From contig NZ_CP033169.1 in the NCBI RefSeq assembly GCF_003691585.1, positions 1,674,001 to 1,738,000 of the forward strand: a stretch of 64,000 bases of DNA, written 5' to 3'. Within the stretch, counting starts at the first letter, position 1. Each line of letters starts with the position of its first letter. Of the stretch, positions 14,676 to 27,546 are shown in pieces. The notes beneath the pieces are model-generated. The model was given only the letters and a program-made list of their open reading frames with translations. It ran no database searches and was not told where the DNA came from. This DNA is from Biomaibacter acetigenes. Its GTDB lineage: Bacteria > Bacillota > Thermosediminibacteria > Thermosediminibacterales > Tepidanaerobacteraceae. Made by a program: the position numbers and the translations under genes.

Positions 14676-15998
14676 TTAGAATCTATTATTATACATTCCT
14701 ACCACTTTTTCCTGCTTAATAGCAAGGTTTTCGTTAAAAAATCCTGTTAGACCCAATTTTGCAACTCTTTCTTTTATGACCTCCGGGGAGGTTTCATAAA
14801 GACCTAATTGCTTCATTCTTTCAAAATACGTTGAGCCTGCAAACGTGAACCTTTTATAAAGTCCATGTTCGGCCTTTAACTGTTCATTTACATAAGCGAT
14901 TATATCTCCTATGGCCAGGGTCCTCGGCAGCTTTACAAGTTCCATATTCAGTGCTTTTCTGACACTGTTATGACCTGCCAGAATTCCGGTACAAATGGCT
15001 TCAGTGTGCCCGACGAATGGTCCTGACTTTTCGCCGGCACAAAAGAGATTATTTAATCCCAATACCTGCATATAATCATCCCTCGGAGCCATAGACATAT
15101 ATCTTATGGAGTTTCCTTTACTCGCAGCGTAAGGATCTTCAAACCTGGCACTTTCGAACCCTTTTATTTTTCTCAGGTCTTCCAATGGAAAAAACGGGGT
15201 CATGAATTTAGCATATCCGGTATCCAGAAGAATAATATTTGCGGCATATTCTTCCAGGGCATATTGCTGGCATACTTTCATGGATATTTTTTCTCTTTTT
15301 ATATATTCTTCAGGTATTTTAACCACCACAACTCCCTTTTCATCCAGTTGTCTTTTTATATTTTCTCCCAAAGTATCTTTGTTTAATTTGCAGGACCCGC
15401 TCATTGCTCCATATGTGTCAACAGACCGCTTTCCGACTAAATCTTCCACACCGGCTTTTTTACTTATACTAACTCTCGGGCCATATGCCGGACATCTCTG
15501 AATACACATGGAGCAGCCATTGCCATGTTTCAAACAATTTCCCATAGGGCCGGATGAGCCGGTTGTTTCAATAAATTCGTCGCCTTCGATGATTTCTTCA
15601 TTGGCAAGCACAATACCCTGTATTGTATTATCCCTGACTTTTACATCCATTGCCCGGGATTTAAATTTTATATTTATACCCATGCCCTCTAAAAATTCAC
15701 GAACCTTCGGTTCGATTTTTGTCACATCATATAAAGTTGCATGTTTGTGGCCCGGAAAGTCCACATTTTTGTGTCTTGCGACGCTGTCAGCTATGTGAAA
15801 AAGTTCTCCTGCCCCCAGAGCAATTGCTTCTTCTGCTGCCGTAAACCTACCGTTATTGCGAATTATACCTCCTACGAGGCCGCACCCCAAAAGCATATCG
15901 GTCTTTTCCAGAATTGTTACATTTGCACCGGCCTTTCTCGCAGCCAGGGCAGCACCACAACCTGCCCATCCTCCACCTATCACTATTATTTCGGTCAT
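14676..15998 (-). CDS. FAD-dependent oxidoreductase with cysteine cluster (paralogue 1)
   Basis: 440 residues. An N-terminal Rossmann FAD site (VIGGGWAGCGAALAARKAGANVTILEK) and the C-terminal NLFCAGEKSGPFVGHTEAICTGILAGHNSVR resemble GidA/TrmFO-like flavoproteins. A mid-protein cysteine set, NCLKHGNGCSMCIQRCP (C-x6-C-x2-C-x3-C-P), could bind an Fe-S cluster; this is inferred. It is a close paralogue of the protein at 23624-24907. It lies 3 bp from the PyrK-like gene, whose end contains this gene's ribosome binding site (GGGAGGGTAA), so the two are coupled and may form an electron-transfer pair. Start ATG is clear. Confidence 0.85.
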   Translation of the reverse strand: MTEIIVIGGGWAGCGAALAARKAGANVTILEKTDMLLGCGLVGGIIRNNGRFTAAEEAIALGAGELFHIADSVARHKNVDFPGHKHATLYDVTKIEPKVREFLEGMGINIKFKSRAMDVKVRDNTIQGIVLANEEIIEGDEFIETTGSSGPMGNCLKHGNGCSMCIQRCPAYGPRVSISKKAGVEDLVGKRSVDTYGAMSGSCKLNKDTLGENIKRQLDEKGVVVVKIPEEYIKREKISMKVCQQYALEEYAANIILLDTGYAKFMTPFFPLEDLRKIKGFESARFEDPYAASKGNSIRYMSMAPRDDYMQVLGLNNLFCAGEKSGPFVGHTEAICTGILAGHNSVRKALNMELVKLPRTLAIGDIIAYVNEQLKAEHGLYKRFTFAGSTYFERMKQLGLYETSPEVIKERVAKLGLTGFFNENLAIKQEKVVGMYNNRF

Positions 15999-16001
15999 TT
16001 T

Positions 16002-16952
16002 TTACCCTCCCAGCACTTGTTCGCTTCTGAGCTGAATTTTGCAAAAATGTATCAATTCACCATCGATCAATGTCTCACAGCTCCCGCAAACCCCTTCGCC
16101 GCAGCACAGTTGATGGTTATTGGATATTATCAGCGGTATACTAAAGCTCAGCTTATTTAAAACATTTTGTATGAACTTGTGCTGAACATCCGAACCACCG
16201 CTATATACGAAATCTACACCATCTTTTTCTATAATCTCCCTCAACCGCATCTTATGGAAGGTGGTGTTCAAATCGAATTCTTGAGGGGTAATCCCCAATT
16301 TTTTTAGTTCATCTTCAGCCAGGTTTACTTTTATATTTCCGCAATCCAATAGAACAGTGATTTTGTTGTTTCCTCTCAAAAGGTTTTTAACCACAGGGAT
16401 TATTGATGCCTGGCCGATTCCCCTGCCTATTATGAGCCAGTGTTTATTGTAACTTGACTTAATGTGTTTTAAACCAAAAAGTCCATTCCAGTATGGCCCC
16501 CGGATCAAAACTTTGTTTTCTGATCTGGCTATGGCTTTTGATTTAGGACCAACTATATTTACAGCAAAGTTGATAATTTTTTTTGATTCATCCACATCCA
16601 TGACGCACAGAGGCACATCATAGTATTCCAGAGAATTTTCAGGCCTTAAAAAGGCAAAAGCCCCCGGTTGATTGTAGTCCCTGACAAGAGAAGCCGAGGG
16701 AATGAATATCTTGATGGTTACAAGTTTATCTGTGACAAAGTTTTTTTCTATTACAGGAACCGATAGCAATTTTCTTTCCTCTATTTTACCACCTGCCCAG
16801 ATATACTCCTGATATACGCAAATCCCCTGCCATCTACAGTCACAGGTGTCTTTTCCTTGGAGCATGGAGCAAATAAGGCAATTGTCCGTCTTTGCCAGAT
16901 GGCATGGACAGTATTGGGAACCGGCGTCTATACAATAGTAATTTAAAGTCAT
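16002..16952 (-). CDS. PyrK/sulfide-dehydrogenase-like FAD and [2Fe-2S] electron-transfer protein
   Basis: About 316 residues. The N-terminus has a cysteine-rich segment (YCPCHLAKTDNCLICSMLQG, then CDC). A ferredoxin-reductase-like FAD/NAD domain follows (GAFAFLRPEN, then IIGRGIGQASIIPVVKNLL for NAD binding). The C-terminal CCGEGVCGSC...C is a PyrK-type [2Fe-2S] motif. Such proteins pass electrons between NAD(P)H or ferredoxin and a partner flavoprotein, here plausibly the FAD oxidoreductase encoded directly downstream. The N-terminal cysteine pattern recurs in the small protein at 21838. Start ATG at 16952 follows AGAGGTGG. Confidence 0.82.
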   Translation of the reverse strand: MTLNYYCIDAGSQYCPCHLAKTDNCLICSMLQGKDTCDCRWQGICVYQEYIWAGGKIEERKLLSVPVIEKNFVTDKLVTIKIFIPSASLVRDYNQPGAFAFLRPENSLEYYDVPLCVMDVDESKKIINFAVNIVGPKSKAIARSENKVLIRGPYWNGLFGLKHIKSSYNKHWLIIGRGIGQASIIPVVKNLLRGNNKITVLLDCGNIKVNLAEDELKKLGITPQEFDLNTTFHKMRLREIIEKDGVDFVYSGGSDVQHKFIQNVLNKLSFSIPLIISNNHQLCCGEGVCGSCETLIDGELIHFCKIQLRSEQVLGG

Positions 16953-17024
16953 TTTATCCACCTCTTTTGAAAAAATATAAAGTTCATTAATAATCTATTC
17001 AAAACAGGTGGATTAGGTGAATAA

Positions 17025-17051
17025 AAAACTGATTCCAATGGAATCAGTTTT
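17025..17051 (-). terminator. Terminator-like hairpin after the Rossmann dehydrogenase gene
   Basis: AAAACTGATTCC (17025-17036) and GGAATCAGTTTT (17040-17051) form a 12-bp stem with a 3-nt loop. The TGA stop of the 17044-17724 gene lies in one arm. The minus-strand transcript continues with TTTTTTAT. It would partly separate the upstream genes of this operon from the flavoprotein pair. Confidence 0.75.
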
Positions 17052-17724
17052 GATTTTGATTTAGCTTTTTTATTATCTCCCGAGCAAAAGGCCCTGCATC
17101 TCCCACAGCATAAGCGTTCATGGTGCCGCAGGCCACATTTCTTATGGCAAAGCTCATATATTCTTCTGGTATATTGAGCTGCTTTAGCCTATTTTGAATG
17201 TTATAGGCAGCTTTAATGCCTTCTTCGCTGGCAATATGATTAATTTCCGCGACTATTTTTTCAGGCCCAAATTTAACTGCCCCGATATTGCCGAAGATTT
17301 CGGCGGTCTTATTGCGGGCTTTTTCATTTTCCCCATCTATCATTATAAGCGGAAGTTCTCCAAAGTCTATCTGAAGCGCATGGCCGATGATTTTTGCCGA
17401 AACAAGTTTGCAGCAATTCTTTAGGGGGGCAAACGCCTCCATATTGGTGTCTGTGGAAATATTTATCAAAATATGTTCCTGTTTTAAAAAAGGTTTTATT
17501 TCCCCGATAGCCCCGGGAATTATTGAAGCCGGTAAAGCTATGATAATAAAATCAGCCTCGCTAAGAAGCGAGTATTCCATGGTGCCTTCCGCTCCTAATT
17601 CCCTTGCTAGCATTCCGCATCGGCGTACATCTTTATCAATAAGTATAAGTTTATATTTTTCTGATAGTTTTCTGGCCAACAGCGAGCCCATCCTGCCTGT
17701 TCCGACTATGGCTACTGTCTCCAT
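17044..17724 (-). CDS. NAD(P)-binding dehydrogenase, P5CR/prephenate-dehydrogenase-like
   Basis: 226 residues starting ATG after AAGGGAGGTATCCTTT. N-terminal Rossmann site VAIVGTGRMGSLLARKL followed by LILIDKD (acidic end of beta-2, suggesting NAD). ADFIIIALPASIIPGAI then resembles pyrroline-5-carboxylate reductase or F420-dependent NADP reductase proteins. The C-terminal helical part has AYAVGDAGPFAREI. The substrate is unknown. In this operon a role in oxidising or reducing an amine- or imine-type intermediate is inferred only. Confidence 0.75.
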   Translation of the reverse strand: METVAIVGTGRMGSLLARKLSEKYKLILIDKDVRRCGMLARELGAEGTMEYSLLSEADFIIIALPASIIPGAIGEIKPFLKQEHILINISTDTNMEAFAPLKNCCKLVSAKIIGHALQIDFGELPLIMIDGENEKARNKTAEIFGNIGAVKFGPEKIVAEINHIASEEGIKAAYNIQNRLKQLNIPEEYMSFAIRNVACGTMNAYAVGDAGPFAREIIKKLNQNQN

Positions 17725-17740
17725 AAAGGATACCTCCCTT

Positions 17741-18817
17741 TTAAATATGTGCCTTTATCAATGATAACAACACATTTACCCCTTGTCTTTTTACATCCAC
17801 CACCGGAATCGGAACAGCATTTTTCATCTTTATAAAAAGTTCTTCTGCATTTACAAACCCTGCTTCGTAATTATTTTTTTCAAATCTGTAACGAGGGTAA
17901 AAGGGATTAACGCTAATGGCTAGAATTGGCAGTTTTTTTAAAACTTTAACTTTGCCGCCAAAAAATAATAAAGTATTTATTTCATTTATTATGTTTTCAG
18001 GGTTGCCACCGGCTACAATTTTTATAGGGTCTCTTACTACTAGCATCTTGTTTTGCCATAAACCACCTATATTATGGTTTAATTCTCTCAACATATTTTC
18101 CGAAAGCAGTGCCGGAATATAGACGGTGTTTATTTCCTCTATATGTTGTTTTATCTGGTCAGCACTTTTTTTATCTATTAATGAGCCATATTCAAGAGTT
18201 TTTATAATGCCTTTATCCTGCTGAACTAAGCAGATTTTGGTTTGTTCATGAAGATTCTTTTTTTCTTCGGAGCTTACTTCTGGGAGGTTGAATAGCTCAT
18301 AGAAAGCTCTGGTTTCCCTGACTAGTTCCTCGATATTGGTGTTCCTGGCAGCTCCTGTCGCAAGGATTATACCATCGGTTTCCACCATAGGAGCTATTCG
18401 GTTTAATGCCCCGTCTACTATGATAAATTTGCAGTTCCTCTTTTGGGTCAGCGTATTTAAAATATATCTAAGTTCACTGCTCTTATTAGGGCCAGCTATA
18501 ACCACCAGTCCGTCCTCAGTAATTTTTATAACCATTATCCTGCCCAGTGGGGTCATAATATCTGTGGACTCCAGTATTTCATATCTGGCGCTGCCGGCAG
18601 CAAGACATTTTTTTGCTGTAGCCACAATTGATCCTTTTTTTAATAAAAGACGGGGTTTGGGTAACCCGGTAATATTGTCAACTTCCTCACCGTCATAACC
18701 TATGCTGGTTAAACCTATTAAAATGTTATCCCTGTATAATTCATCCAGAATAGCAGAAGTAGTTGTGGTTTTGCCGGTATTTTTAGCAGTTCCTGCTGCT
18801 CCAATTATAAAAGCCAT
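17741..18817 (-). CDS. P-loop protein resembling aminomutase reactivase subunit KamB
   Basis: 358 residues. N-terminal P-loop AAGTAKNTGKTTTTSAILDEL, then GLTSIGYDGEEVDNITGLPKPRLLLKKGSIVATAKKCL, ESTDIMTPLGRIMVIK and VIIAGPNKSSELRYIL with KFIIVDGALNRIAP. From memory, this order of segments is that of KamB, or OR-1 in ornithine clusters, the accessory protein that restores inactivated cobalamin/PLP aminomutases. It ends 16 bp before the dehydrogenase gene, and its start lies 18 bp after the stop of the cobalamin-binding mutase gene. A reactivation role for that mutase is inferred. No MutS-like KamC partner is seen here. Confidence 0.6.
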   Translation of the reverse strand: MAFIIGAAGTAKNTGKTTTTSAILDELYRDNILIGLTSIGYDGEEVDNITGLPKPRLLLKKGSIVATAKKCLAAGSARYEILESTDIMTPLGRIMVIKITEDGLVVIAGPNKSSELRYILNTLTQKRNCKFIIVDGALNRIAPMVETDGIILATGAARNTNIEELVRETRAFYELFNLPEVSSEEKKNLHEQTKICLVQQDKGIIKTLEYGSLIDKKSADQIKQHIEEINTVYIPALLSENMLRELNHNIGGLWQNKMLVVRDPIKIVAGGNPENIINEINTLLFFGGKVKVLKKLPILAISVNPFYPRYRFEKNNYEAGFVNAEELFIKMKNAVPIPVVDVKRQGVNVLLSLIKAHI

Positions 18818-20668: not shown

Positions 20669-20896
20669 TTATTCTTTATTTAACCATCCATAGCGGTCAC
20701 CGGGTTTGTAAACATAACCCCTCAGTCTTACTCGGGCACCGGGACCCTGGTGCTGAATGAATACTATGCTGACATCTTTAAAACCTAACTCATCCATCAG
20801 TTGAAGAGAGAGTTTTTTTCCCTCTTCTTCATCCTTACATACGAGAAAGGTTTCCAGGTCCACAGCATCCATTACCTTTTCCATTACCATGGACAT
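20669..20896 (-). CDS. Small protein encoded before the cobalamin mutase
   Basis: 75 residues from the ATG at 20896, preceded by AAAGGAGGCAATAAA. It is first in the operon and ends 15 bp before the mutase. A compact alpha/beta sequence (ETFLVCKDEEEGKKLSLQLMDELGFKDVSIVFIQ, then GARVRLRGYVYKPG), without cysteine clusters or membrane segments. Position suggests a small subunit or activator of the mutase, as with the small subunits of other aminomutases, but I see no sequence similarity to OraS. No family recognised. Confidence 0.6.
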   Translation of the reverse strand: MSMVMEKVMDAVDLETFLVCKDEEEGKKLSLQLMDELGFKDVSIVFIQHQGPGARVRLRGYVYKPGDRYGWLNKE

Positions 20897-20912: not shown

Positions 20913-20927
20913 CTCATCATAGATGAG
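20913..20927. promoter_or_regulatory. Putative operator CTCATC-ATA-GATGAG before the mutase operon
   Basis: A perfect 6-3-6 palindrome 17 bp upstream of the start of the first gene of the mutase operon, overlapping the leader just before its ribosome binding site. A nearly identical palindrome lies before the other operon of this block (27412-27426). The regulator gene between the two operons (21008-21757) is the obvious candidate to bind it; this is inferred. Confidence 0.6.
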
Positions 20928-21007
20928 GAGTAATAAGTAAAATAAAATTAGCTTAAAAAGCAAGCCACAACCTTTACACTTTATTTTAGCAAATAAAAAT
21001 CAATTAA

Positions 21008-21757
21008 TCAATTATTACCGTTAAAGTTATCATCATTGTATACTATTTCCCAATACTTTTTAACATCCTTTGCCAGGTTTTCTATATGACGCACCATAGC
21101 TTTTTCCGCCATTTCGGCATCTCTGGAAACAATAGCCTGAAATATGTTTTTATGGTCAAGAAGGACAGTGCTTCTTACTTCTTTTCTTATATATTCCAGG
21201 ATGGGAGATATCTGGCCGTGTTGTCTTATCAAATCCATGGCGGCATCTAGAACCCTGTTCTTTGCAGCCCGGGCTATCGCCTTGTGAAATTTTATATCGT
21301 CATCAGCAATCGATATGCCCCTATCCACATGTTCTTGTTGACTGCGGATTATTTCCTCCATTTCTTGGATTTCTTCCGGTGTTATAAATTGTGCTGCAAG
21401 TTTTGCCAGCTGGCTTTCTATGGCTTTTCGGGCTATTAAAATATCCAGCAATTCCTGTTTTCCGGTGACTTTGATAGCATTTACAAGTTCATTCCCATAA
21501 TGATTTATTCGATGTTCCTGTTCTAATTCCTTCAATTTTTTATGACCGGAAGCTGTCAAATTTCTACCCTTAAATCCGATTTTTTCGGTATAGCCTTTAA
21601 TATCCAGTTCCCTAAGAATACGGCCTGCCGTGGCTTCACTTATATCAAATCCCTGCATCTTTAAATTGTCGCGTATGAAGCCAGATCCTACCGGTATTTG
21701 AGAGTTTGCAATTATTTTTAAAATCATGTAGAACAGACGTTGCTTCTCCAGTAACAT
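21008..21757 (-). CDS. FCD-domain transcriptional regulator
   Basis: 249 residues. The N-terminal ~75 form a winged helix (KIIANSQIPVGSGFIRDNLKMQGFDISEATAGRILRELDIKG), more like the NrpR/crotonate-type wing than classic GntR. The rest is an all-helical FCD ligand domain with the metal/ligand-binding pattern DDDIKFHKAIARAAKN ... H ... MVRHIENL (D-x3-H and later His residues). FCD regulators sense small organic acids or amino-acid-derived compounds and bind palindromes in dimeric form. The gene lies between the two operons of the accessory block, 80 bp from the mutase-operon leader, with its own start after GGGGGGAGAAA. Confidence 0.85.
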   Translation of the reverse strand: MLLEKQRLFYMILKIIANSQIPVGSGFIRDNLKMQGFDISEATAGRILRELDIKGYTEKIGFKGRNLTASGHKKLKELEQEHRINHYGNELVNAIKVTGKQELLDILIARKAIESQLAKLAAQFITPEEIQEMEEIIRSQQEHVDRGISIADDDIKFHKAIARAAKNRVLDAAMDLIRQHGQISPILEYIRKEVRSTVLLDHKNIFQAIVSRDAEMAEKAMVRHIENLAKDVKKYWEIVYNDDNFNGNN

Positions 21758-21837
21758 TTTCTCCCCCCGATTGTCTTTATTTTTACTAAACTATATATTT
21801 TATTATACATTACTTTTAATCTAAAAAAAATATATTT

Positions 21838-22053
21838 TTATAAATAAAGCATTGAAACAAGAGAGCTTTGTTTTATTTCTTCTCTCAAAATTCCTATATC
21901 ATTACAGATGTTATCTTTCATACCGAAAAGTATCAGATCATATCCCTTTAAATGATCACAAACAGGACAGGCATTCACTTCTGCTAAAATACACGGACAG
22001 TTTTGTTCGGAAAGCCTTTCACATTCTTTATTCCAAAAACGATGAATAGTCAC
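21838..22053 (-). CDS. Small cysteine-rich protein
   Basis: About 71 residues from the GTG at 22053, after GGAGGGAGTTGCT. The cysteine pattern QNCPCILAEVNACPVCDHLKGYD closely matches the N-terminal segment of the PyrK-like protein at 16002 (QYCPCHLAKTDNCLICSMLQG): CPC-x-LA-x5-C-x2-C-x2-L-x-G. It may bind Fe-S or zinc and dock with the same partner. No known family. It lies downstream of the transporter gene on the same strand. Confidence 0.6.
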   Translation of the reverse strand: MTIHRFWNKECERLSEQNCPCILAEVNACPVCDHLKGYDLILFGMKDNICNDIGILREEIKQSSLVSMLYL

Positions 22054-22073
22054 AGCAACTCCCTCCATTAAAA

Positions 22074-22096
22074 AGAATATTTATATAAAATATTCT
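22074..22096. repeat. Perfect AT-rich inverted repeat between transporter and small cysteine protein
   Basis: AGAATATTT (22074-22082), ATATA, AAATATTCT (22088-22096): a 9-5-9 perfect palindrome in the gap between the transporter stop and the next gene. No U-tract follows on either strand, so a simple terminator is unlikely. An operator or mRNA-processing hairpin is possible. Confidence 0.4.
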
Positions 22097-22144
22097 CGGT
22101 AGAGAAATTGTGTGACTATTTTCCCTTAATATTGGTTCATCTTT

Positions 22145-23530
22145 TTACAGGATAAAGATTGCTACAATCGTAGTTACGATTAACCCAATTATGACAGGGA
22201 TAAAATTTTTTCGGGCGAGGTCATTGGGGTCGACACCGGCTATGGCAGCAACCGGTATTATGCCCCAGGGAATAATGGTGCCGCCTCCAACCCATACAGC
22301 GGCAATTTGACCGAGGGCTCCAAGAGTGGCTTTGTCCACATGAATAGCGGTGCTAAATGTCTGAGCCAGGGAACCCACCAGGGGAAGCCCTGAAAATCCC
22401 GAACCGTCCAATCCTGTGATGCCGCCAATTATCATTTGTATGAACGCCACTGGAATCTTGCTTAAAGGAACCGCCTGGGATAATGCAATACCGAGATCTG
22501 ATAAAAGGCCTGTAGCCTGGGGGCCTAAAATGGCTCTGGCAGTAGATTCGGACCCCAGGAAGAAAAATCCTCCTATCACTATAACCGGTGCAAAAACTTT
22601 CATTCCAAACAAGAAACCTTCTCTGACATAATCGGTAATTTTTTCGAGTGAATCCGCACCAAACCCCAATAATGAAATAACTGAAGTTATAACAAGGGCC
22701 GTTCCACCTATTAGCGCCGTGGCATCTCCGCCTCTTAATTTAAATTTTAAAAGCAAAAAAATGTCAATCAAAAATAAGATTACAAATAAGGCGGCCCCCA
22801 CATATGATACTGATGTAAATTTCCTATTTTTTTGTTTCTCATCAGCTTTTTCATATGCAAGTCTGTGGGCTTCATTTTCACCCTTATTTCGAGTTATATC
22901 CTTTTTTACAAAGATATAAGACAAAACAGTTGTCACTATACCCATTGTAAGCCATAATGGAAAACTTGCGCTCATTACAGGTGTGGCAGTGGCGAATCCT
23001 GCGGCTTTTGCGGTAATGGCGGGAGCACCCTGAATTACATAATCTCCTGATAATCCAAGGCCATGGCCGAAGATATTCATAGCCACAGCGGCTCCCATCA
23101 CCGAAAGCCCTGCTCTGACCGCAATGGGAAGCATAATTGCGCCAATCAAAGCTACAGCCGGGGATGGCCAGATAAATAGCGTTACAATCAACATCACAAA
23201 ACCGAGCACCCAGAATGCAATATCAGCGTTGACCATGATTCTGGCCGTAGGCCTCATTATTAGATAATCGCTACCTACATCGCCCATGGCCTTTGACATG
23301 GCCACCACCAGACCGATTACAGTTATTAAACCGAGAAACTCGGTTCCGGCAGCAATTAAAGCATTGAAAAGTACCTGTACAGATTTCCATGCATTTCCTG
23401 TCGATACAAAACCCACAAGCAATATGCCGATTACACAGGGCAAAACCGTATCCCTTCTCAATGCCATAGTTGCAATTATCACGATGACCATTCCAAAATA
23501 TACCCAGTGTATGGTAGAAAGGTGAACCAT
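22145..23530 (-). CDS. Polytopic membrane transporter of GntP/ion-transporter-like type
   Basis: 461 residues with about 11-12 hydrophobic segments. It starts MVHLSTIHWVYFGMVIVIIATMAL after GGAGGGGAAATA. A hydrophilic loop near residues 210-240 (KKDITRNKGENEAHRLAYEKADEKQKNRK) divides two halves. Glycine-rich segments such as GGITGLDGSGFSGLPLVGSLAQTF and WVGGGTIIPWGIIPVAAIAGVDP recall carboxylate or gluconate permeases. Substrate unknown. Its place in the mutase-linked block suggests uptake of the substrate being fermented; this is inferred. Confidence 0.75.
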   Translation of the reverse strand: MVHLSTIHWVYFGMVIVIIATMALRRDTVLPCVIGILLVGFVSTGNAWKSVQVLFNALIAAGTEFLGLITVIGLVVAMSKAMGDVGSDYLIMRPTARIMVNADIAFWVLGFVMLIVTLFIWPSPAVALIGAIMLPIAVRAGLSVMGAAVAMNIFGHGLGLSGDYVIQGAPAITAKAAGFATATPVMSASFPLWLTMGIVTTVLSYIFVKKDITRNKGENEAHRLAYEKADEKQKNRKFTSVSYVGAALFVILFLIDIFLLLKFKLRGGDATALIGGTALVITSVISLLGFGADSLEKITDYVREGFLFGMKVFAPVIVIGGFFFLGSESTARAILGPQATGLLSDLGIALSQAVPLSKIPVAFIQMIIGGITGLDGSGFSGLPLVGSLAQTFSTAIHVDKATLGALGQIAAVWVGGGTIIPWGIIPVAAIAGVDPNDLARKNFIPVIIGLIVTTIVAIFIL

Positions 23531-23569
23531 TATTTCCCCTCCAAAATATAAAATATTATAAAATAATAA

Positions 23570-23598
23570 AAAGGGGCCAAATTTATGACCCCTTTTTT
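23570..23598 (-). terminator. Terminator after FAD oxidoreductase 2
   Basis: On the minus strand AAAAAAGGGGTC pairs with GGCCCCTTTTT around a short loop, ending in a T-run at about 23570-23575. It lies between the stop of the FAD oxidoreductase and the transporter start, so the transporter may be expressed at a lower level or from its own promoter. Confidence 0.65.
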
Positions 23599-23623
23599 AT
23601 ATGATGTTCTCATGTCGTGATTT

Positions 23624-24907
23624 TTATACTATTTTCTGATTAAAGAAGTTTGTCATGCCTGCTTTTTCTACCCGTTGTTTTATGGCATTTACATCTGTAG
23701 TGTAAAGGCCCAGCTGCTTCATTCTTTCAAAATACACCGAACCTGAGAAAGTATATTTTTTGGAAATACCTTCTTCGGTTTTCATCTGTTCTTTTACATA
23801 AGCGATGGCATCACCTACAGCAAGTTCGGTGGGTATCTGTGCCAGTTCTTTGCCCATTGCAAACCTGACAGCATTGGCTCCGGCCAGAGTACCGGTGCAA
23901 ATAGCTTCGGTATGGCCTACCAGGGGGCCGGCCTTTTCACCGCCGCAGAAGAGATTGTCTACCCCTTCGGTCTTTAAGAAATTGTCTCTTGGAGAAATGG
24001 CCAGATACCTCATAGAATTACCTCGATTTCCGGCATATGGGTCCTCATATCTGGCATTTTCAAACCCTGGAATTCTCCTTAGGTTTTCCAGAGGGAAAAA
24101 TGGCGTCATCAATTTAGCATGGCCTGTATCCAAAAGCACCACATTTTCGATAAATTCCTTCAAGGCATATTGCTGGCATGCTTTTTTATTTAAAATATCG
24201 GCTCCTTCCCTTACCTCTTCAGGAACGGGAATTACCGCTACACCGGTAGAATCTAATTTATTAACTATATCTTTGGAAAGGGAATCCTTGTGAAGCTTAC
24301 AGGATCCGCTCATGGCTCCATAAGTGCCGTCGGCTTTCTTAGCCATCATTTCTTTTACTCCCATTTTGCCGGCAACGCTTATTCTGGGGCCGTAACTTGG
24401 GCATCTTATGATGCACATGGCACATCCGTTTCCATATTTAGTGCAGTTACCCTGAGGGCCTGCCGTTCCGGTACATTCTACAAAGACGTCGCCCTCAAAT
24501 CTTTCATCGTTATCGGTAATAACCGCTTTAATCTTTTTACCCTCGGCTTCAACATCTTTTACTCTGCTTTCGGTATGAATTTCGATACCTGCATCCAGTA
24601 AAACCTTTTTTACAGCCGGTTCAACCCTTGCCACATCGTATAATGTTGCATGCTTATGGCCCGGAAATTCGATATTTTTATGGCGGGCAACATTATCCGT
24701 TACCTGGAATAATTCTCCGCCACCCATTGCAATCATTTCTTCGGTAGCGGTAAATCTTCCGTTATTTCTCATAATACCGCCTACCAGGCCGGTTCCCAGC
24801 AGCATATCCGTTCTCTCAAGCAAAACTACATCGGCGCCGGCTTTTTTTGCGGAAAGTGCTGCGGCGCAACCTGACCATCCACCGCCAATTACAACTACTT
24901 TTGGCAT
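23624..24907 (-). CDS. FAD-dependent oxidoreductase with cysteine cluster (paralogue 2)
   Basis: 427 residues, start ATG after GAGGGAGGGAAAAAG. Same architecture as the 14676-15998 product: FAD site VVIGGGWSGCAAALSAKKAGADVVLLER, cysteine set NCTKYGNGCAMCIIRCP (C-x6-C-x2-C-x3-C-P) and C-terminal NLFCGGEKAGPLVGHTEAICTGTLAGANAVR. Identity to paralogue 1 is high along the whole length by eye. Having one copy in each operon suggests two redox steps on related substrates or a heteromeric enzyme. Substrate unknown. Confidence 0.85.
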   Translation of the reverse strand: MPKVVVIGGGWSGCAAALSAKKAGADVVLLERTDMLLGTGLVGGIMRNNGRFTATEEMIAMGGGELFQVTDNVARHKNIEFPGHKHATLYDVARVEPAVKKVLLDAGIEIHTESRVKDVEAEGKKIKAVITDNDERFEGDVFVECTGTAGPQGNCTKYGNGCAMCIIRCPSYGPRISVAGKMGVKEMMAKKADGTYGAMSGSCKLHKDSLSKDIVNKLDSTGVAVIPVPEEVREGADILNKKACQQYALKEFIENVVLLDTGHAKLMTPFFPLENLRRIPGFENARYEDPYAGNRGNSMRYLAISPRDNFLKTEGVDNLFCGGEKAGPLVGHTEAICTGTLAGANAVRFAMGKELAQIPTELAVGDAIAYVKEQMKTEEGISKKYTFSGSVYFERMKQLGLYTTDVNAIKQRVEKAGMTNFFNQKIV

Positions 24908-24932
24908 CTTTTTCCCTCCCTCTTTTTTTGGA

Positions 24933-24962
24933 AAATGCCAAAGGGAAGACCCTTTGGCATTT
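24933..24962 (-). terminator. Strong hairpin between PLP enzyme and FAD oxidoreductase 2
   Basis: AAATGCCAAAGGG and CCCTTTGGCATTT pair with a 4-nt AAGA loop (13-bp stem). On the minus strand it is followed by ATTTTCC, a weak U-tract, so it may act as an attenuating terminator or an mRNA-stabilising 3' hairpin. Confidence 0.6.
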
Positions 24963-24970
24963 AGAAAATC

Positions 24971-26437
24971 TTAGTCTATGAAACCGCTGTATTTAGCAAC
25001 GATTTCCATCAACTTAACCAGGGCTTTAACAGCATATCTGAAATTCTTTTCCACTATTTGGCCATTTTCGTCGGTTGTTCCAAGGCCCGGTGAGATCATT
25101 ATATTTGCGTCATAAGCCACGGTGGGAATTACACCCATTGGTCCCAAACCGCTCTGGAAGATGTTTGTTCCGGCATACATATCTTCTATGGAGAATATCG
25201 GCAGACCCAATTCAGTGCCGTTCCATGTGTTTTCATAGTTTACTTCAATAGCTCTGGAATTGTAGGATTTTGTGATGATTAAACCTTTCTTAATCTTTGG
25301 ATGAATCTGTTCAAACTCTTCTTTTACAATGTTGTACATGTCATCTACGGGTTTGGTCAATTCAGCGGGATTGTCCCTCAACTCCTTCAGGGCAGCAACT
25401 ACCCCAAGAAGAGCTTCTTTACCGGGATCATTTGTAACATAGGCTGCCTTGCCGTAGGAAGCCGTGGTGCCGTACCTGTCACCATGCATACCCAGGGCTC
25501 TTCTAATGGGTACCATGAATTCTTCTTTACCTATAATCAAACCAGCAGTTGTAGATTCACTGGCTTTGTCAAGACTGTAGATAATAACATCGGCACCGCT
25601 CTTTCTGATGTCATGGCCAATAAAGGGAACACCCCAGGCATTGTCAATTACATAGGGTATGTCAAAATCATGGGCAATTTCAGCCAGCCTCTTTTGCAAT
25701 ATTGGTGTTCCATCGGTATCCTTCACGCCATATCCATAACCCGGTGTGTCATATCCCAGTGAAGTGATACCTGTCAACATGGAGGCATGCCTGTCGGCTA
25801 TGGTTTTGATCTTTTTGGCAGAAGCTTCAGGATCCACTTTTGTCAATTGAATTACAGGATGGTATTTTATTCCATGGACTGAGTAATCCGCACCTACAAG
25901 AGGAGCAATATAAACACTGGTGTTGTTCTGCCTCTTGCCGTAGAAACCTAATTCTCCCGGAGTGGACCCCCTATCGGCAAGGATGTCTTTAAATCTTCCC
26001 GGGAAGGGTCTACCGTATCCACCATGATGATGCAGGTGTTTTTCATAGGGAATAATGTAACGAGCCTGGTAACTGTCTCCTCTTCCCTGCATAGGCGGAG
26101 TAAACAGAGCGTCGAAAGTTACCCAGAGACCTGCTTCACAGGTGTTGACAGGAGCTACATCATATTCATCGCCATAAACATCCTTTACAATTGAACGAAT
26201 TTCATCTACAAGTTTTGCAAGAGGGATAACCTCCGTGCTTCCCTTATCCAGAGCTTCCCTTACTTTTTTTGTAAGAGGCGAGGGACATCCGGATATGGCT
26301 CCGGTTAAACCAAATTTTCCTCTCAATTCAGCCGGAATCCCTATCTCATCGGCGGCTTTCCGGGCTTCGGCGTAGATATTGGGTATGTTGGCCTGTAGGA
26401 ACCTATACATTTCAAATTTCTTTGTGAACTTGGCCAT
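24971..26437 (-). CDS. PLP-dependent fold-type I enzyme, unknown substrate
   Basis: 488 residues, start ATG after AGGAGGAGTTTTAAA. Fold-type I PLP signs: an Asp in PYVIDNAWGVPFIG that would contact the pyridine nitrogen, and a candidate Schiff-base Lys in IIYSLDKASESTTAGLIIG. The N-terminal third has GLTGAISGCPSPLTKKV and APVNTCEAGLWVTFDALF; a histidine-rich stretch (EKHLHHHGGYGRPFPG) is unusual. It resembles beta-eliminating lyases or Sep/Sec synthase-like enzymes only in general layout. Directly upstream in the same operon is RidA, which hydrolyses enamine/imine products of PLP enzymes, so an eliminating or deaminating reaction is plausible. Confidence 0.75.
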   Translation of the reverse strand: MAKFTKKFEMYRFLQANIPNIYAEARKAADEIGIPAELRGKFGLTGAISGCPSPLTKKVREALDKGSTEVIPLAKLVDEIRSIVKDVYGDEYDVAPVNTCEAGLWVTFDALFTPPMQGRGDSYQARYIIPYEKHLHHHGGYGRPFPGRFKDILADRGSTPGELGFYGKRQNNTSVYIAPLVGADYSVHGIKYHPVIQLTKVDPEASAKKIKTIADRHASMLTGITSLGYDTPGYGYGVKDTDGTPILQKRLAEIAHDFDIPYVIDNAWGVPFIGHDIRKSGADVIIYSLDKASESTTAGLIIGKEEFMVPIRRALGMHGDRYGTTASYGKAAYVTNDPGKEALLGVVAALKELRDNPAELTKPVDDMYNIVKEEFEQIHPKIKKGLIITKSYNSRAIEVNYENTWNGTELGLPIFSIEDMYAGTNIFQSGLGPMGVIPTVAYDANIMISPGLGTTDENGQIVEKNFRYAVKALVKLMEIVAKYSGFID

Positions 26438-26454
26438 TTTAAAACTCCTCCTGA

Positions 26455-26912
26455 TTATTTTATTTTTACAATAAGTTCAACTTCACATGTGGCATCCATG
26501 GGTAGCTCGCTCACACCTACCGCGGAGCGCGCATGGGCCCCTGCATCGCCAAAAATCTGGCCCAGCAATTCTGAAGCACCATTTATGACTTTTGGCTGCT
26601 GGTTGAAACCATCGGCACTATTTACGAATCCGACAACTTTAACTATTTTTTCAACGTTGTCAAGACTTCCCGCCAAGGATTTTATAATGCTCAGACAGTT
26701 TAATGCACAAATTTTGGCCGCTTCATAAGCATCTTCCACCGTAACTTCTTTTCCGGCTTTCCCCTTATACTTCAACTCCCCATTTACGAAGGGAATCTGA
26801 CCTGCAGTATAGATATACTTATCTACTTTTACCCCTGGAACATAAGCTGCAACCGGTTTTGGCGGTTCAGGCAATGTGATGCCCAACTCCTGAAGCTTTT
26901 TTCGAATGACAT
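26455..26912 (-). CDS. ridA: RidA/YjgF-family enamine/imine deaminase, frameshifted near start
   Basis: Hydrolyses reactive enamine/imine intermediates released by PLP enzymes. Landmarks: AAYVPGVKVDKYIYTAGQIPFVNGELKY, EAAKICALNCLSIIK, and the C-terminal DAGAHARSAVGVSELPMDATCEVELIVKIK with the conserved Arg in ARSAVGV. The best start is the ATG at 26912 (MSFEK...), six bases after GGGAGGTG. That frame joins the body only if the A-run at 26897-26902 (six T on the plus strand) gains one base. It is followed 17 bp later by the PLP enzyme, a functional pairing. Confidence 0.88.
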
Positions 26913-26978
26913 AAAATACACCTCCCTTCAAAGCGTATTCCAAATTTATTTTTTTCATAAAAAACTTTTTTATTCTTT

Positions 26979-27401
26979 TTATCCGATTTCTACCTCATCA
27001 TCCAGCTTTAGATTTCTTTCATTTCCTGATATGCGCTCATCACTATAGATTACAATATTATAATGGTTTGGCATGTGAGTTTCGTCAAAACCTGCTATCT
27101 TTCCAACGACATTTCCCGCCACTTTTACCTCATCACCTACAACAATGACGGTGCTTTCCTTGACAGTAAAAAACCCAAGATAGGCAATTCTGTTTACTGT
27201 ATCTCCAGGTCCCTTTGTTTCGTCCGTTAGTATCATTTCATGAACTTCATTTTGCAAAAGGCAGCGGGATGGTTGAGCAATGAGTTTTAACCCACGTTCC
27301 TCATATTTCCCATCAAGGACAACCACGAGGTTCCCTTTTAAAGGTTTTTTCTTGGCATATGGATTCATTTTAAACATTCCTGTTTTATATGGATCTGCCA
27401 T
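26979..27401 (-). CDS. Conserved-looking hypothetical protein, first gene of the PLP/RidA operon
   Basis: 140 residues from the ATG at 27401, preceded by GAGGAGGTATAAG. The sequence is beta-rich (KGNLVVVLDGKYEERGLKLIAQPSRCLLQNEVHEMILTDE, then VIVVGDEVKVAGNVVGKIAGFDETHMPNHYNIVIYS), with no membrane segment, cysteine cluster or signal peptide. It looks like a small barrel or enzyme-associated domain. It follows a TATAAT -10 box and a palindromic operator. No family recognised with confidence. Confidence 0.6.
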   Translation of the reverse strand: MADPYKTGMFKMNPYAKKKPLKGNLVVVLDGKYEERGLKLIAQPSRCLLQNEVHEMILTDETKGPGDTVNRIAYLGFFTVKESTVIVVGDEVKVAGNVVGKIAGFDETHMPNHYNIVIYSDERISGNERNLKLDDEVEIG

Positions 27402-27411
27402 CTTATACCTC

Positions 27412-27441
27412 CTCATCAATGATGAGCTATTTTGCATTATA
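27412..27441 (-). promoter_or_regulatory. Promoter -10 box with overlapping-downstream operator CTCATC-AAT-GATGAG
   Basis: On the minus strand TATAAT (27436-27441) is followed ten bases later by the palindrome at 27412-27426, which abuts the ribosome binding site of the 27401 gene. A weak -35 (TTTCAA, 27459-27464) lies 17 bp upstream. The palindrome differs only in its 3-bp spacer from the one at 20913-20927. A regulator bound here would block initiation. Confidence 0.6.
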
Positions 27442-27546
27442 AGTATTCTACATTTTTATTGAAAATCCTTCTTACATACAAAAAATTTTTTTAGTTTTTT
27501 TCATTAAATGGTATTTATTTTTTATGATTGATATTTATTCCGCTTT

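Follow-up and report, generated by a model that had tools for sequence, protein, structure and literature searches.

The window studied here is a stretch of 64,000 nucleotides from Biomaibacter acetigenes. It holds two operons on the minus strand, a gene for a regulator between them and two copies of a short palindrome (Table 1). A sequence-only reading of this DNA had claimed two perfect 6-3-6 palindromes and an FCD-domain regulator gene lying between them. Both palindromes are indeed there, each before the first gene of its operon, and the regulator gene lies on the same strand immediately upstream of site 1.

Table 1. Genes and predicted control sites of the two operons, with positions in the window.
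Feature	Position	Strand	Remarks
Operon 1: GidA-like FAD oxidoreductase, paralogue of 23624-24907	14676..15998	-	
Operon 1: dihydroorotate-dehydrogenase-electron-transfer-like FAD/NAD protein (PRK05802)	16002..16961	-	364 bits, cut-off 313
Operon 1: NAD(P)-binding oxidoreductase (F420_oxidored-like)	17044..17724	-	domain hit
Operon 1: reactivase, KamB family	17741..18817	-	NF052386, 255 bits, cut-off 210
Operon 1, gene 2: B12-binding domain fused to TIM barrel, lysine 5,6-aminomutase-like fold, 610 aa	18836..20668	-	B12-binding 3.2e-17
Operon 1, gene 1: small protein, 75 aa, putative small subunit of B12 enzyme	20669..20896	-	paired with large protein in relatives
Operator site 1 (predicted), CTCATC-ATA-GATGAG	20913..20927		minus-strand reading CTCATC-TAT-GATGAG; exact copy at orthologous position in relatives
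Regulator, 249 aa: HTH_12 winged helix (residues 11-75) and FCD ligand-binding domain (105-227)	21008..21757	-	HTH_12 1.4e-11, FCD 7.3e-24
Transporter, 461 aa, downstream of operon 2	22145..23530	-	terminator-like hairpin before it
Operon 2: GidA-like FAD oxidoreductase	23624..24907	-	
Operon 2: PLP-fold enzyme, 488 aa, distantly DgaE/SelA/SepCysS-like	24971..26437	-	weak matches, about residues 200-400
Operon 2: RidA/YjgF-family imine/enamine deaminase	26455..26958	-	4.8e-24
Operon 2, gene 1 (first after site 2): DUF6917 protein	26979..27401	-	DUF6917 1e-50, scan of ORF to 27437
Operator site 2 (predicted), CTCATC-AAT-GATGAG	27412..27426		exact copy at orthologous position in relatives
Promoter-like TTTTCA-N18-TATAAT	27436..27465	-	consensus match only; such sites barely above shuffles in region

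At site 1 the ATG (20896) follows 16 nt after the end of the palindrome, with a GGAGG in between. At site 2 the distance to the ATG of the DUF6917 gene (27401) is 10 nt, and the 3' arm shares 2 nt with the Shine-Dalgarno sequence AGGAGG. The TATAAT hexamer of the promoter-like element is followed after 9 bp by the start of site 2. Near site 1 just one promoter-like sequence was matched on the minus strand, TTGATT-17-TAAAAT (21011-20983), whose second hexamer follows a TG, and the search for such matches found no clear -10 directly upstream of that site. The earlier claim that each palindrome sits in a leader between a -10-like element and the ribosome binding site is right for site 2; at site 1 the ribosome binding site is present and the -10 is not clear.

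Base composition alone predicts 0.003 exact copies for the window and 0.15 for the genome. Of 200 shuffled windows, 2 contained a repeated perfect 6-3-6 palindrome whose arms each had three or more G/C. The next-best matches in the window carry 3 mismatches, and their number (20 seen, 17.7 expected) is at chance level. The sequence-only reading had noticed no third copy; this is true of the window, which has only the two exact copies, but genome-wide there are two more, at G000:375106 and G000:3079421.

The large protein of operon 1 is listed from a GTG start, and translation may in fact begin a few codons further on. Its structure matches 1xrs_A (TM 0.54/0.63, E 5e-17) and likewise 3kow: it has the fold of the lysine 5,6-aminomutase alpha subunit and a beta-like B12 domain, with the B12 domain first. 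The sequence match of its TIM barrel to known aminomutase barrels is weak (E about 0.02), and the PLP lysine was not located there. The 75-residue protein gave no family hit. The clusters of lysine 5,6-aminomutase (KamDE) and ornithine 4,5-aminomutase (OraSE) have the same B12-domain and TIM-barrel folds and a KamB-family reactivase. They differ in that the B12 domain here is N-terminal and fused into a single 610-residue chain, and in that the partners here are the family-less small protein, a DgaE/SelA-like PLP protein, RidA and DUF6917. The two GidA-like paralogues, one in each operon, have the cysteine-rich stretch GNGCSMCIQRCP in common. Across the 80 loci described below, the gene for DUF6917, a family without known function, is nearly always found ahead of that for the PLP enzyme, which suggests a shared complex or reaction. 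Judged by its gene content, the cluster encodes a B12-dependent pathway that probably breaks down an amino acid, and the predicted functions fit a catabolic route from an amino acid to a 2-oxo acid.

The neighbors of the DUF6917-PLP pair in other organisms bear on the substrate. In Fermentithermobacillus (L141, L149, L150 and L154, upstream of 9500) the pair lies beside NagZ-, AnmK-, MurQ- and D-aminopeptidase-like murein-recycling genes, which were assigned by eye. In Atribacteria (L134, L135) its neighbors are lysine/diaminopimelate biosynthesis-like genes; L135 also has a DapA-like gene, with 48% identity to a member of the regulon in the source genome, inserted between DUF6917 and the PLP gene. 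Because of these murein-recycling-like and lysine/diaminopimelate-like neighbors, a cell-wall diamino acid is a candidate substrate, and no more than a candidate.

The AlphaFold model of the regulator has a mean pLDDT of 90. Its C-terminal half matches the FCD folds of PdhR (Z 20.8, rmsd 1.4 over 146 residues) and DhdR (Z 20.7, rmsd 1.9 over 141 residues), while its N-terminal domain aligns separately with winged helices of the PadR/CggR type. HTH_12 and FCD occur together in all 33 regulator orthologues, and in the same 33 proteins the Pfam GntR winged helix was absent from the hits at E 0.01. Two sets of residues are invariant across these orthologues. The first is the motif SEAT-x-GR at the second helix of the HTH, which is likely the surface that reads DNA. 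The second consists of Asp154, His158, His202 and His224 (Asp-x3-His plus two further His), a pattern known for the FCD metal site; these four residues likely form the metal site of the domain.

A second HTH_12-FCD regulator (L057:1795-2511, minus strand), 32% identical to the first, is encoded near a DapA-like gene of the source genome. A related palindrome, CTAATCATTGATGAT (L057:2605-2619), lies 94 bp upstream of its gene, and this regulator may use a variant operator. When the wider family of HTH_12-FCD paralogues (L050-L055) was searched for a common motif, only the paralogue in the source genome had a similar site.

Among 299 genomes of the phylum, 25 (the source genome counted) encode a regulator orthologue, with 36-90% identity. 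In the surrounding loci the exact motif stands again before DUF6917 and before the gene for the small subunit, at orthologous positions and across many families of Bacillota, so the palindrome is conserved upstream of the orthologous operons. A second, independent set of 80 loci from other genomes was collected through the PLP gene, without the regulator as a query. The exact intergenic motif is present in 44 of the 48 loci that have a regulator orthologue and in 6 of the 32 that do not (Fisher p 5e-10, for loci of at least 17 kb only and uncorrected for kinship, be it common descent or horizontal spread of the cluster as a whole). Of the six regulator-less loci with the motif, three (L141, L149, L150) come from genomes that encode the regulator elsewhere (E 1e-77 to 1e-80), and the other three (L080, L085, L123) are short contigs. 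Four regulator loci (L096, L117, L147, L151) have imperfect sites only. In genomes with two clusters the motif occurs only at the one with the regulator, and the paralogous PLP cluster goes without it (L116/L124 in Heliorestis; L095/L120; L109/L125).

We also let every 6-3-6 palindrome within 300 bp of cluster genes compete in the 48 regulator loci. CTCATC-N3-GATGAG was found in 41 of them and the runner-up in 5. Palindromes with spacers of 1, 2, 4, 5, 6 or 8 gave nothing comparable near the cluster genes except shifted readings of the same site. Counted on sites with exact arms only, the spacer prefers A-N-T (74% and 89%), which makes the full site CTCATC-ANT-GATGAG. Its distance to the start codon in orthologues runs from overlap to more than 100 nt; it is mostly about 8-20 nt, and about 50-130 nt at some genes. 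Variants are few and mostly changed on one side. Variable distance and one-sided variants are what one expects of a protein-binding site.

Raw genome counts are less clear-cut, since exact copies also occur in 12 of 26 genomes without a regulator orthologue. The overlap arises because the motif spells common codons (CTC ATC NNN GAT GAG, Leu-Ile-x-Asp-Glu). In five of these regulator-less genomes (G305, G308, G012, G016, G001) each inspected copy is in frame inside a gene, and the copy in G020 is within an ORF as well.

The genome of the source organism was scanned with the palindrome. The four exact sites are well above the roughly 0.15 expected, all four are 5' of genes, and the reversed control pattern has no copy in the 3.4-Mb genome. 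One of the extra copies precedes GntP2 by about 85 bp; this transporter of 463 residues groups with its paralogue in the window. The other stands about 67 bp ahead of what is likely the ATG of a DapA-family gene, which is followed by oppD- and oppA-like (peptide-ABC-transporter) genes; this site would fall inside the longest ORF if a far-upstream TTG were the start. The copies support a predicted regulon of at least four transcription units in the source genome, larger than the two operons proposed at first. Ten sites in the genome have one mismatch. Eight are in frame within recognizable genes, often in Leu-Ile-x-Asp-Glu-like codons, one falls in a short unassigned ORF (L013), and the last (372296) lies at the 5' end of a GntP2-like gene that has decayed. 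This transporter remnant (G000:C1:372100-372310; L056:7107-7310) keeps a short stretch with 73% DNA identity to the intact gene, and ATCATCAATGATGAG, a decayed operator, still stands before it.

GntP2 belongs to the regulon, by its upstream motif, in at least seven relatives. Dethiobacter-like genomes (L133, L142, L226) have a 2-oxoacid:ferredoxin oxidoreductase operon among the members, and Fermentithermobacillus has a peptide-ABC operon behind one motif site. In Tepidanaerobacter relatives (L217:6117-9575) genes for a DUF34/NIF3-like protein, an amidohydrolase and a membrane protein have the operator in front of them too, possibly an extra branch of the regulon.

We believe, at a probability of roughly 80%, that CTCATC-ANT-GATGAG is the operator of the HTH_12-FCD repressor in the window and serves a B12-dependent, aminomutase-like catabolic regulon. 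The regulator would bind this site as a dimer, and its FCD pocket would sense a small carboxylate or an amino-acid-derived metabolite of the pathway. Free of ligand, it would occupy the beginning of the transcribed region (about +4 to +18 at operon 2), which would block transcription; on binding the ligand it would release the DNA. The regulon would consist of operon 1 with the aminomutase-like enzyme and its reactivase, operon 2 with DUF6917 and the RidA, PLP and FAD enzymes, the second transporter, and the DapA-like gene with its oppD/oppA-type genes. The protein may also control itself as a distal gene of operon 2, since its gene follows that operon on the same strand; a terminator-like hairpin (23597-23568) and several hundred bases separate the two. 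The sequence-only reading had proposed one repressor and one regulon. The part that ties the motif to the FCD regulator holds up, even where the regulator gene is unlinked; direct binding, the dimer, repression over activation and the class of ligand are what we infer. Of the two outcomes named in that reading as fatal to it, a lack of conservation before orthologous operons and a chance-level frequency in the genome, neither was observed.

The strongest competitor keeps the same operator and the same regulator but has the protein activate, or both activate and repress. Some FCD proteins are activators; CitO, for example, activates citrate genes (PMC4746285). The 50-130 nt between site and start codon at some genes would suit an upstream activator site if the transcript begins downstream, and at site 1, which has no clear -10 just upstream, position is no bar to activation. 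However, the two main operons and most orthologues have the site in the leader, about 8-20 nt before the start codon, and at operon 2 it follows the promoter-like element, a place where a bound protein would block transcription. We consider activation unlikely.

It could also be argued that the palindrome is the operator of some other regulator and that the FCD gene is a mere passenger of the cluster. Shared ancestry of the cluster could produce a misleading association, and one genome, G019, has motif sites, one of them right before DUF6917, yet no regulator was detected in it. That genome is only 78% complete, however, and no other regulator-like family is as recurrent in the 80 loci. Fermentithermobacillus keeps the motif though its regulator is unlinked, and the paralogous clusters that are without the regulator are also without the motif. 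This makes a passenger very unlikely indeed.

A third explanation has the palindrome act as an RNA hairpin at the ribosome binding site, in translational control or mRNA stability, rather than as DNA. It lies in the leader by the Shine-Dalgarno sequence, could form a 6-bp stem with a 3-nt loop, and the folded segments reach -8.7 and -7.8 kcal/mol. Yet this folding is not clearly beyond that of shuffles (z -0.8 and -1.2), the predicted structures differ from the simple 6-bp hairpin, and the mostly one-sided variants come without compensatory changes. The start-codon distance varies from overlap to more than 100 nt, presence of the motif tracks the gene of a DNA-binding protein, and Rfam returned no match. 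We give the hairpin hardly any credence, and the Rfam, folding and variant results speak against a riboswitch as well. Coincidence, a repeat born of codons or composition, has the least going for it: Leu-Ile-x-Asp-Glu codons do give chance copies inside genes, but the four genomic copies stand 5' of cluster, transporter or aldolase-family genes against 0.15 expected, the exact motif is kept in 44/48 regulator loci, and the co-occurrence with the regulator (44/48 versus 6/32) and the palindrome ranking (41/48 versus 5/48) refute it.

The predicted repressor and its operator can be compared with two known groups. The FCD-type (FadR subfamily) GntR regulators PdhR, LldR, DhdR, DgoR and TM0439 have in common with it the all-helical FCD sensor, adjacent catabolic operons and a palindromic operator, and the invariant candidate Asp/His metal ligands are a further likeness. 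The differences are in how DNA is read. Our regulator has HTH_12 instead of the GntR winged helix, and the operator of the FadR subfamily is of the type TNGT-N3-ACNA, unlike the site assigned to the regulator here. HTH_12 occurs in archaeal NrpR and in the N-terminus of ribonuclease R, and palindromic operators are known for NrpR. NrpR thus has the same Pfam DNA-binding domain as our regulator, but the FCD sensor here takes the place of the NrpR domain and the operator differs. The protein would work like an FCD-type catabolic repressor, and by its DNA-binding domain and operator it would not be a standard member of the GntR family. We found no published description of the motif, of DUF6917 or of an HTH_12-FCD regulator in the open-access literature.

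A bolder interpretation is that this HTH_12-FCD chimera, with an operator code of its own, belongs to a class of transcription factor not described before. Its signal would be an intermediate of a likewise undescribed fermentation that depends on B12 and may use a cell-wall-derived diamino acid such as diaminopimelate. The idea of a diaminopimelate-type substrate comes from the murein-recycling-like genes in Fermentithermobacillus, the lysine/DAP-like genes in Atribacteria, and the DapA-like and peptide-transporter genes in the regulon. We offer this interpretation tentatively and regard it as doubtful.

What does follow is that an aminomutase-like cluster without a described function, spread in anaerobic Bacillota and a few other phyla, now has a predicted operator and regulator assigned to it. 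The predicted regulon also enlarges the inventory of the pathway by a second transporter and a DapA-like aldolase, to which some relatives add a 2-oxoacid:ferredoxin oxidoreductase. The pairing of HTH_12 with FCD adds a type of DNA recognition to the FCD group. FCD regulators usually bind a metabolite of the pathway they control, so the compound that frees the regulator from its 15-bp site would be a direct route to the substrate.
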